A stretch of 64,000 bases of DNA from Winogradskyella psychrotolerans RS-3. Its GTDB lineage: Bacteria > Bacteroidota > Bacteroidia > Flavobacteriales > Flavobacteriaceae. The stretch covers positions 62,001-126,000 of the forward strand of contig NZ_ATMR01000095.1 of assembly GCF_000427335.1 (NCBI RefSeq). The letters run 5' to 3'. The notes below the pieces were generated by a model. It worked only from the letters and a program-made list of their open reading frames with translations. It was not told where the DNA came from and made no database searches. Below are positions 1,305 through 9,114 of the stretch, in pieces. The position numbers and the translations under genes are program-made. The first letter of the stretch is position 1, and each line of letters starts with the position of its first letter.

Positions 1305-1338
1305 GTATAAATACCTTATCTTTATTTAAACCACAATC

Positions 1339-1460
1339 GTCAGTTCGAGTGTTTAGTTATTTGAAGAGAAACGAAGAAGAACTAAATGTATCGAGAACCT
1401 TCGGCACAACAATTGTTCTCGATACAATTTTATCGTACCTCAAAAATCACTCGAACTGAC
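1339..1460. repeat. Nested-palindrome dispersed repeat, copy A
   Basis: A 122-bp element bounded by a perfect 13-bp inverted repeat (GTCAGTTCGAGTG at 1339-1351, its complement at 1448-1460). Inside lies a second perfect 12-bp inverted repeat (TGTATCGAGAAC at 1387-1398, complement at 1415-1426) with a 16-base loop. Copies B, C and D have the same architecture and orientation. With copy B it fills the roughly 330-bp gap between dus and the GIY-YIG gene. No ORF in it is convincing. Confidence 0.92.
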
Positions 1461-1506
1461 AGAAGGATAAAATTGAAAATCCAAACCACTCAAGCGAACC
1501 ACCTAC

Positions 1507-1628
1507 GTCAGTTCGAGTGTTTAGTTATTCGAAGTGAAACGAAGAATAAATAAATGTATCGAGAACCTTCTGTACAACAAATGTTCTCGATACAATTTTC
1601 TCGTGCCTCAAAAATCACTCGAACTGAC
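1507..1628. repeat. Nested-palindrome dispersed repeat, copy B
   Basis: Second copy, 122 bp, 46 bp after copy A and in the same orientation. Outer arms are at 1507-1519 and 1616-1628, inner arms at 1555-1566 and 1583-1594. It ends 10 bp before the stop codon of the GIY-YIG gene, so it forms the 3' border of that gene and could serve as its transcript terminator hairpin. Confidence 0.92.
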
Positions 1629-1638
1629 GGAAAGAACT

Positions 1639-1929
1639 TTATTTAAAATTCTTTTTTGCCAAATTGGGCAACTTATCAAATTCATTATTAATTAAAGCTT
1701 CCTTTTTAGCTCTAGACCACTTTTTAATTTGTTTCTCAGTTTCTATGGCGAGATTAATATCGGTAAATTCCGCGTAGAATTTTAATTCAACAGGTCGCCT
1801 TTTGTACGTATAACTATCTATATGTGCTCCTGATTTATGTTCAAATAATCGCTTATTTAAATTACTTGTAACACCAGTGTAGTACGTATAATCTGAGCAT
1901 TTTAAAATATAGACATATGATATTTTCAT
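1639..1929 (-). CDS. Small GIY-YIG nuclease-family protein bracketed by repeats
   Basis: A 96-residue single-domain GIY-YIG protein. The family signature appears as YVYILKCSDYTYYTGVTSNL at residues 5-24 (the YVY and YTG elements), followed by the conserved Arg in LNKRLFEHK and a late KKWSRAKKEALI segment with the supporting Glu. This is the UvrC-like/YhbQ-type minimal domain, about the usual length (80-100 residues) and without a separate DNA-binding domain. Members cut or bind branched DNA in some cases, but the role of this subgroup is not established. The gene sits between repeat copies B (10 bp downstream) and C (35 bp upstream), so its promoter must lie in or next to copy C. Confidence 0.88.
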   Translation of the reverse strand: MKISYVYILKCSDYTYYTGVTSNLNKRLFEHKSGAHIDSYTYKRRPVELKFYAEFTDINLAIETEKQIKKWSRAKKEALINNEFDKLPNLAKKNFK

Positions 1930-1964
1930 AGTTAAAGTTATAAAATCTAAAATAAACCTACAGC

Positions 1965-2085
1965 GTCAGTTCGAGTGTTTATTCATTTGAAGTTTAACGA
2001 AAAAGAATAAATGTATCGAGAACCTCCGGTACAACAAATGTTCTCGATACAATTTTCTCGTACCTCAAAAATCACTCGAACTGAC
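1965..2085. repeat. Nested-palindrome dispersed repeat, copy C
   Basis: Third copy, 121 bp, same orientation. Outer arms are at 1965-1977 and 2073-2085, inner arms at 2012-2023 and 2040-2051. It lies upstream of the GIY-YIG start (minus strand) and upstream of the radical SAM gene (plus strand). The four copies differ mainly in the apical loop and the left connecting segment, whereas both stems are kept. Confidence 0.92.
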
Positions 2086-2130
2086 GTATCAACTTCTATT
2101 CAAATTAAAACCAACCAACGATATTACCTT

Positions 2131-8855: not shown

Positions 8856-8935
8856 ACCTGCAAGGTTTTGAATACCTTGTAGGTCTATAAAGCTAACAAG
8901 TCATACCTACAAGGTTAAAAAGAAACCTTGCAGGT
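8856..8935. repeat. Second type of nested palindrome (ACCTGCAAGG element)
   Basis: The outer arms ACCTGCAAGGTTT (8856-8868) and AAACCTTGCAGGT (8923-8935) are exact complements. The inner arms ACCTTGTAGGT (8874-8884) and ACCTACAAGGT (8905-8915) are also exact complements. The design, two nested stems, is the same as that of the 122-bp family, but the sequence is unrelated. The two kinds lie 18 bp apart and together fill the 312-bp gap between the PLP gene and the Imm53-like gene. It may end transcription of the PLP gene. Confidence 0.85.
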
Positions 8936-8953
8936 TATCAAGTTTTCTAGCAC

Positions 8954-9075
8954 GTCAGTTCGAGTGTTTATTGATTCGAAGTGCAACGAAGAATTAAAAA
9001 ATGTATCGAGAAGCATTCGTTTTACTGCAGGTTCTCGATACAATTTTTCAAAAAAGAAAAATCACTCGAACTGAC
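8954..9075. repeat. Nested-palindrome dispersed repeat, copy D
   Basis: 122 bp, same orientation as copies A-C, about 7 kb away. Outer arms at 8954-8966 and 9063-9075 are perfect. Inner arms are at about 9002-9012 and 9031-9042 with one change at the loop end. An ATG inside it (9001) is in frame with the downstream gene, but it only translates the repeat and is not taken as a start. Confidence 0.9.
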
Positions 9076-9114
9076 GTAATAACAAATAATCAAATTCAAT
9101 ACCTTATAACACAA

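Follow-up and report, generated by a model that had tools for sequence, protein, structure and literature searches.

A single-domain GIY-YIG nuclease gene set between CGTC-tagged, REPIN-like palindromes in Winogradskyella psychrotolerans and related bacteria

Introduction

Why does the gene of a very small GIY-YIG nuclease lie among several copies of one palindrome in Winogradskyella psychrotolerans RS-3? The window examined here (64,000 nucleotides of contig NZ_ATMR01000095.1, positions 62,001 to 126,000) carries such a gene, and the original prediction, made from the letters of the DNA, was that the nuclease recognises the cruciform of the palindromes and takes part in their spread or control, in analogy to REP elements and RAYT transposases. 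Palindromes with a CGTC tag have been defined as CGTC-REPs and reported in five phyla, apparently without a dedicated transposase in the available part of that paper (Di Nocera et al. 2013, PMC3733652). In this study, we examined the anatomy of the elements, their association with the gene in other genomes, and the evidence that gene and elements form one mobile unit.

Results

Palindromic elements of the window

Three elements with two nested stems had been predicted near the gene, and all three were found (Table 1). They are 123 to 124 bp long with the tags included. The outer arms (GTCAGTTCGAGTG / CACTCGAACTGAC) are perfect over 13, 14 and 14 bp in elements 1, 2 and 3, respectively, and the inner arms (TGTATCGAGAAC / GTTCTCGATACA) are perfect over 12 bp in all three elements around the gene. 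The spacing of the gene was likewise as described, the start codon being 35 bp from the arm of element 3 and the stop codon 10 bp from the arm of element 2. A fourth copy had been claimed at 8954; it was located as element 4, which has an imperfect inner stem and a mismatch in one hairpin foot. The window has eight half-elements, six of them around the GIY-YIG gene. The tag pattern YGTCASTTCGAGTG occurred 42 times in the genome of the window and was present in 54 of 60 genomes of the genus, while its reversed control was found in none of the 60; the elements are therefore not due to chance. A separate inverted repeat pair (ACCTGCAAGGTTT / AAACCTTGCAGGT) adjoins element 4 at window positions 8856–8935, and a similar pair was seen by eye in locus L314.

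Table 1. Positions in the window of the GIY-YIG gene, the palindromic elements and their parts
Feature	Position	Strand	Remark
Palindromic element 1	1338–1461	.	REPIN-like dimer of two tagged hairpins
Element 1, half-element A	1338–1398	+	CGTC tag, AGTTC stem, GA, inner hairpin, GA, GAAC foot
Element 1, half-element B	1415–1461	-	TGTC tag
Spacer between elements 1 and 2	1462–1505	.	44 bp
Palindromic element 2	1506–1629	.	half-elements A 1506–1566, B 1583–1629
GIY-YIG nuclease gene	1639–1929	-	96 aa, single domain; Pfam GIY-YIG, E=3.4e-15
Palindromic element 3	1964–2086	.	half-elements A 1964–2023, B 2040–2086
Palindromic element 4	8953–9076	.	without a GIY-YIG gene

The GIY-YIG protein

Residues Y7, Y17, G19, R27 and E65 were invariant among 52 aligned sequences, and the Y, R and E of the protein presumably belong to the catalytic set of the superfamily. 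Its structure was predicted with a mean pLDDT of 83.5. The closest solved relatives by both sequence and fold were the UPF0213 proteins BH0048 (1zg2) and EF2693 (1ywl); 1zg2 (phmmer E=2.6e-10, Foldseek E=2.7e-5) was the sole structure that passed a Foldseek E of 0.001. After UPF0213, the sequence search and the predicted structure gave weak matches to Slx1 and UvrC.

Association of gene and repeats in relatives

Genomes of 84,980 species, one per species, were scanned for relatives of the gene, and the best 80 of 284, which represent 79 distinct loci, were analysed. These relatives are 71–92% identical and come from flavobacterial genera or metagenome bins, two being named only Bacteroidia. 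Among these best 80 of 284, 71 of the 79 loci had a half-element no more than 200 bp away on each side of the gene, and the remaining 8 had one on a single side. The nearest half pair in the 71 loci was A-gene-B in 41, B-gene-A in 11, A-gene-A in 10 and B-gene-B in 9. A tag with at most one mismatch was present within 500 bp of the gene in all 79 loci, in line with the expectation that genes of this subgroup lie nearer to the repeats than random genes do.

The upstream and downstream flanks of the gene were alike in 63 of 78 relatives (one of the 79 loci was too short and was dropped) as compared to 11 of 587 shifted control intervals of the same loci, a control that sets intergenic flanks against mostly coding DNA. 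The same holds for the comparison with all distant DNA, which is mostly coding (6.35 half-elements beside the gene versus 0.33). Against the other intergenic DNA of the same loci, the density was 6.76 versus 1.71 half-elements per kb, and the enrichment is thus fourfold, not twentyfold; a half-element was present in 17 of the 92 other intergenic gaps of at least 150 bp in the 79 loci.

Single-domain GIY-YIG genes of any subfamily were also surveyed in 61 Bacteroidota genomes, where 70 of the listed genes of this kind were taken and three were dropped for the flank comparison. Repeated flanks, direct or inverted, were present in 51 of 67 versus 3 of 124 controls, again with intergenic flanks set against mostly coding DNA. 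Of the genes with supported tagged stems, 22 of 24 had direct flank repeats; the figures were 19 of 25 for genes adjacent to tRNA genes and 6 of 17 for the remainder. For 39 further genera of the family, 67 of the listed single-domain genes were taken and one was dropped; such repeats were found in 39 of 66, made up of genes with tagged stems (26 of 37), genes beside tRNA genes (5 of 8) and others (8 of 21). Around 16 GIY domains in frames of 597–672 aa, assigned to UvrC by length alone, three tagged hairpins were detected in 36.7 kb of mostly coding DNA. Pairing of gene and repeats by chance is excluded, and a dedicated enzyme-repeat pair is well supported.

Structure and covariation of the half-elements

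In every half-element, YGTC is followed by a foot of ca. 5 nt and GA; then comes the inner region, and after it a second GA and the complement of the foot. Hairpins with GA outnumbered those with any other dinucleotide both in the 79 loci (249 versus at most 12) and in 70 loci (65 versus at most 13), and the exact tagged GA-hairpin was present in only 19 of the 70 loci of the phylum sample. The base 5' of GTC, a trinucleotide that the detector itself demands, was C in 309 and T in 138 of 455 halves. The foot was complementary in 410 of 446 halves (among the 446, G..C 207, C..G 198, C..C 15 and G..G 1). The inner stem was paired at 0.85 as compared to at most 0.58 with shuffled partners, and 245 of 292 loops were distinct. 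Since the inner region is self-complementary but variable, in length as well, these observations suggest a hairpin in single-stranded DNA rather than a double-strand operator. In the genome of the window, TTCCTGCG..CGCAGGAA elements are plain palindromes without the G-A mismatch.

In 89 dimers of the relatives, the foot bases paired inside a half in 166 of 178 cases, whereas the outer arms of the dimer matched each other at the foot position in 7 of 89. Of the 89 dimers, 77 joined a C-type to a G-type half (71 of 100 by another detector); the dimers of the window are G/G, a minority type (6 of 89). A one-pair difference of this kind was seen by eye in other families (ATTCT/ATGCT in L150, ATTTC/ATGTC in L193 and L203). 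Two whole elements of the window, folded as DNA, had z values of -7.5 and -9.1 against shuffles, with the nested fold best by predicted energy, whereas isolated window halves folded no better than shuffles (nearest-neighbour DNA energies, z -1.7 to +0.6). The half-hairpin reading thus rests on covariation and not on energy.

It had been supposed that the stems are conserved through selection of the fold. Covariation does exist, but it acts within the half-element more than between the outer arms, and it does not favour the nested outer and inner stems as the selected structure even though they form the best predicted fold of a whole element. Judged from covariation, the nuclease most likely recognises one tagged hairpin, formed in single-stranded DNA, rather than the four-way cruciform that the original prediction had put forward.

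With the tags outward (A-B), 100 pairs were counted at distances of -3 to 59 bp; 114 B-A pairs came from arrays. Tandem arrays of tags had periods of ca. 109, 171–173 and 181 bp (contigs C1 and C3 of genome G022, contig C39 of G036), and the array in G036 directly adjoins two tandem copies of a GIY-YIG gene.

Matching of protein and palindrome

Matching was evaluated at 63 of the 141 loci beyond the 79, namely those with at least two supported stems, no adjacent tRNA gene and a protein of 76–124 aa. The nearest homologue in another genome had a common stem 5-mer in 42 of these 63 REP-type loci, which belong to 35 Bacteroidota genomes; permutations gave a mean of 7.2 and a maximum of 19 (n=2000). 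Of 45 pairs of paralogues within one genome, 6 had a stem in common (4 of 43 for dissimilar paralogues). Homologous flanking DNA was found in 1 of 33 matching pairs examined, and these 33 cover all 42 matches, nine being reciprocal. Since nearest homologues matched far more often than paralogues and did so between largely non-homologous flanks, the palindrome type is tied more closely to the enzyme than to site or host, and vertical inheritance at one site was rejected as the cause of the matching. The order of the tree, inspected by eye, agreed with this specificity: the palindrome type goes with the protein clade.

Differences between genomes in the presence, place and orientation of the elements

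The intergenic site between dusB and the radical-SAM gene was located in 15 of the 60 genus genomes. Two of the 15 had the gene with three elements. L131–L133 had a single element, degenerate in one of them, and L134 a degenerate trace; L128–L130 carried a different REP family, and the other six held no recognised element of the window family. The order is element-spacer-element-gene-element in the window and element-gene-element-spacer-element in G048, where the spacer has a close counterpart across the GIY-YIG gene (L126). The gene cassette has thus shifted its place relative to the spacer. Five genomes (G016, G022, G031, G039 and G042) have no gene at the dusB site and a cognate gene (at least 74% identical) elsewhere, and in several pairs, e.g. 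L046/L047, the neighbours are the same but the gene has the opposite orientation. In the comparison of filled and empty syntenic sites that had been proposed, the dusB site occurred with the gene and with a single element, but no filled/empty pair with base-resolved junctions was found among the loci compared.

The commonest gene-bearing form is tag-hairpin-gene-hairpin-tag of ca. 400 bp. The A-gene-B form was measured in 35 loci (median 414, range 392–473 bp), and compact gene-bearing units of 392–409 bp, with no other half within 900 bp, were found in 10 loci. The gene is better described as part of a mobile unit. Element 4 was compared through the gene that follows it, which was matched in 33 genomes; in the 30 loci read, not all of them syntenic, the DNA upstream of this gene held the present family in 13, the ATTCT/ATTCA family in 4 and no recognised element in 13. 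A search for target-site duplications at 31 isolated elements gave values similar to those of control pairs, with two elements above the 99th and four above the 95th percentile of the control.

In another family of the same genome, a GIY-YIG paralogue with an internal stop (L004, contig C102) has TTCCTGCG palindromes on its flanks and lies between two 47-bp direct repeats (1408–1454 and 1841–1887; two differences) that copy the beginning of a lipoyl-domain gene. This 47-bp repeat may be a long target duplication.

Repeat number and Y1 genes

A cognate gene, defined in the Pfam count of the genus by an identity of 66% or more, was among the matches listed in 16 of 60 genomes. The median number of exact tags was 22 in these 16 genomes and 10 in the 44 without it (p=0.001), and all six genus genomes with zero tags were without the cognate gene; many tags and no cognate gene among the matches listed were found in G028 (72), G017 (39) and G026 (39). 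Repeat number thus differs by presence of the gene, as had been expected, but the difference is not specific to it: the 26 of 60 genomes with any Y1 match had a median of 21.5 tags versus 5 in those without (p=0.0035). Copy number is poor evidence because of this similar difference. IS200-size Y1 genes alone showed no difference in tag number (p=0.37), and ten genomes with at least 20 tags had no Y1 match. At 30 loci among the Y1 matches listed, a tag was present within 500 bp in none and anywhere in the locus in one.

Occurrence in other phyla and a clade beside tRNA genes

A related GIY-YIG protein led to 35 records of a plasmid collection, 12 of which were read. YGTC-tagged palindromes were present on both sides of the gene in 8 of the 12 loci, which come from three phyla, Pseudomonadota and Cyanobacteriota among them: Azospirillum lipoferum 4B, Novosphingobium, Shinella, Sphingobium, Rhizobium CIAT894, Neisseria gonorrhoeae, Planktothrix and Spirosoma. 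The Aeromonas locus had a tagged palindrome on one side, and in three of the 12 loci there was none or a doubtful one. In the outer regions of these loci, the background of this detector was 0.29 per 250 bp, so that ca. 1 of 12 loci would be flanked on both sides by chance. Several Pseudomonadota loci had the classical CGTC-REP form. On plasmid p1 of Planktothrix agardhii (L304), the GIY-YIG gene and its palindromes lie between an MmeI-type restriction enzyme gene and drmA of DISARM.

A second Bacteroidota clade has even smaller GIY-YIG proteins and adjoins tRNA genes (e.g. L148, L151, L153, L161, L162, L170, L172, L177, L178, L186–L189, L191, L194, L196–L198, L205, L229, L241, L250, L256, L260, L276 and L290). 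A tRNA gene was found within 200 bp in 31 of 48 cases for proteins of up to 94 aa versus 4 of 93 for longer ones, and nearest homologues in other genomes adjoined the same tRNA isotype in 14 of 35 cases (permutations: mean 2.5, maximum 11). By eye, parts of the tRNA were often repeated on both sides of the gene, with small palindromes in the partial copy. One locus (L195, G112:C34:5500-11200) is a tandem array with eight GIY-YIG matches listed at a spacing of ca. 364 bp, and its first copy is flanked by tRNA-like 3' parts and a terminator-like hairpin.

Discussion

These results suggest, with a probability of about 0.7, that the window carries a gene-bearing member of a CGTC-tagged REP-like family and that the GIY-YIG protein serves this family as its dedicated enzyme, nicking its tagged hairpins. 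Each element is an inverted, REPIN-like pair of hairpins, and every hairpin combines a YGTC tag that is unpaired and points outward with a foot stem of 4–5 bp, a tandem G-A mismatch and an inner stem that varies. The protein most likely recognises the tagged hairpin in DNA that becomes single-stranded in replication, transformation or repair, and would nick it at or near the tag. The tag-hairpin-gene-hairpin-tag unit of ca. 400 bp, as well as the gene-less dimer, would then be copied or moved with the help of host replication, repair or homologous recombination. We infer that such cutting of single strands at this place would drive the spread of the repeats, and hence their transposition.

The most serious alternative, which we consider possible though clearly less probable, is that the repeats are address labels by which the nuclease controls incoming single-stranded DNA in transformation or repair, the repeats having spread otherwise and the gene having been kept nearby. 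A model of this kind has reportedly been advanced for Neisseria Ssn and NTS. The Neisseria GIY-YIG locus with tagged palindromes on both sides agrees with it, as do the persistence of repeats in genomes without the gene and the lack of a clear target duplication, but address labels do not alone explain a gene placed between outward-tagged hairpins at many unrelated sites or the non-homologous flanks in 32 of 33 matching pairs. Free-standing homing, in which the enzyme cuts empty repeats and the gene is copied in by break repair, would make the repeats targets and not ends. The single elements of L131–L133 at dusB, where the window has element-spacer-element-gene-element, could be read in this way, and the outer flanks of L132 match by eye; A-gene-B is, however, the commonest arrangement (41 of 71, the others together 30), and the 10 compact units stand apart from any other half, which makes homing unlikely.

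Far less probable is mobilisation of the repeats in trans by a RAYT/Y1 transposase with the GIY-YIG gene as a passenger. Genomes with a Y1 match do carry more tags, and a Y1 subclass with flanking secondary structures has been described for Bacteroidetes in the available part of PMC6006769, but a tag lay within 500 bp in 0 of 30 Y1 loci versus 79 of 79 GIY-YIG loci, the ten tag-rich genomes without a Y1 match and the result for IS200-size genes also speak against such a mobiliser, and the matching of protein and stem is not predicted by it. We regard as most improbable of all that the repeats serve to terminate transcription or to stabilise RNA and that the gene lies beside them by chance in repeat-rich intergenic space. 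The elements are intergenic and common there anyway (17 of 92 gaps), and whole elements fold strongly; however, they are four times as dense next to the gene as in other intergenic DNA, and a stem that tracks the protein clade contradicts this view.

The dedicated-enzyme reading can be set beside several known systems. The analogy to REP and RAYT holds up well: as in REPIN/RAYT systems, tagged hairpins form inverted pairs, the enzyme gene is flanked by its own repeats, and enzyme and repeat co-vary, with the stem tracking the protein clade. The differences are the tag, GTAG there and YGTC here, and the enzyme, a Y1/HUH transposase there and an unrelated GIY-YIG fold here. Unlike IS elements and MITEs, the window family has no clear short target-site duplication at the 31 isolated elements. 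The gene of a GIY-YIG homing endonuclease is found in an intron, an intein or its own cleaved target; the window gene lies between repeats that might be such targets. In Nature Communications in 2025, Chenal et al. are said to have described the Ssn proteins, GIY-YIG nucleases with a cognate repeat at which they cleave single-stranded DNA; thousands of homologues are reportedly included, and the emphasis is said to lie on transformation and cleavage. The likeness extends to the small single-domain protein with a repeat family, to a cognate genomic repeat for homologues (42 of 63 versus 7.2) and to the Neisseria locus read here, and cleavage would be the shared activity. The pairing of gene and repeat is thus partly known. 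REPIN anatomy, heterotypic ends or a reading as mobile elements are not known to be part of that reported work, and a search of open-licence PubMed Central papers found none linking GIY-YIG proteins to REP, REPIN or CGTC palindromes; the REPIN anatomy and the evidence for mobility may be new.

CGTC-REPs resemble the window family in the outward CGTC/TGTC tag, the short palindrome and the predominance of inverted dimers with tags outside, and several families occur in some genomes, with Bacteroidetes, A. lipoferum and Neisseriae being named in the available part of the paper (PMC3733652). They have a stem of 8–9 bp and a loop of 4–5 nt according to the same part (PMC3733652), whereas the halves of the window are 47–61 nt long and combine a foot of 4–5 bp with the tandem G-A mismatch and an inner hairpin that is long and variable. 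The repeat families studied here go with GIY-YIG genes, whereas a dedicated enzyme is not reported for CGTC-REPs in that part (PMC3733652).

A wider reading, which we hold tentatively and at slightly less than even odds, is that CGTC-type REPs are mobilised by their own GIY-YIG single-strand nucleases. The unit of ca. 400 bp would then be among the smallest autonomous mobile elements and would use a route without DDE, Y1 or serine/tyrosine recombinase, left and right hairpin types would pair, and the sister GIY-YIG clade would do something similar with tRNA genes. The enzyme for CGTC-tagged palindromes was left open by Di Nocera et al. 2013 in the available part (PMC3733652), and the present comparison points to GIY-YIG nucleases as candidates that fit this vacant role; the Y1 genes found in the genus do not fit it (0 of 30 loci). 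The clade-specific stems form a ready table of protein-target pairs for work on specificity, and the question would be testable with one small protein and short oligonucleotides. If the dedicated-enzyme reading is true, these families would provide a second counterpart to REP/RAYT, built on an unrelated enzyme.
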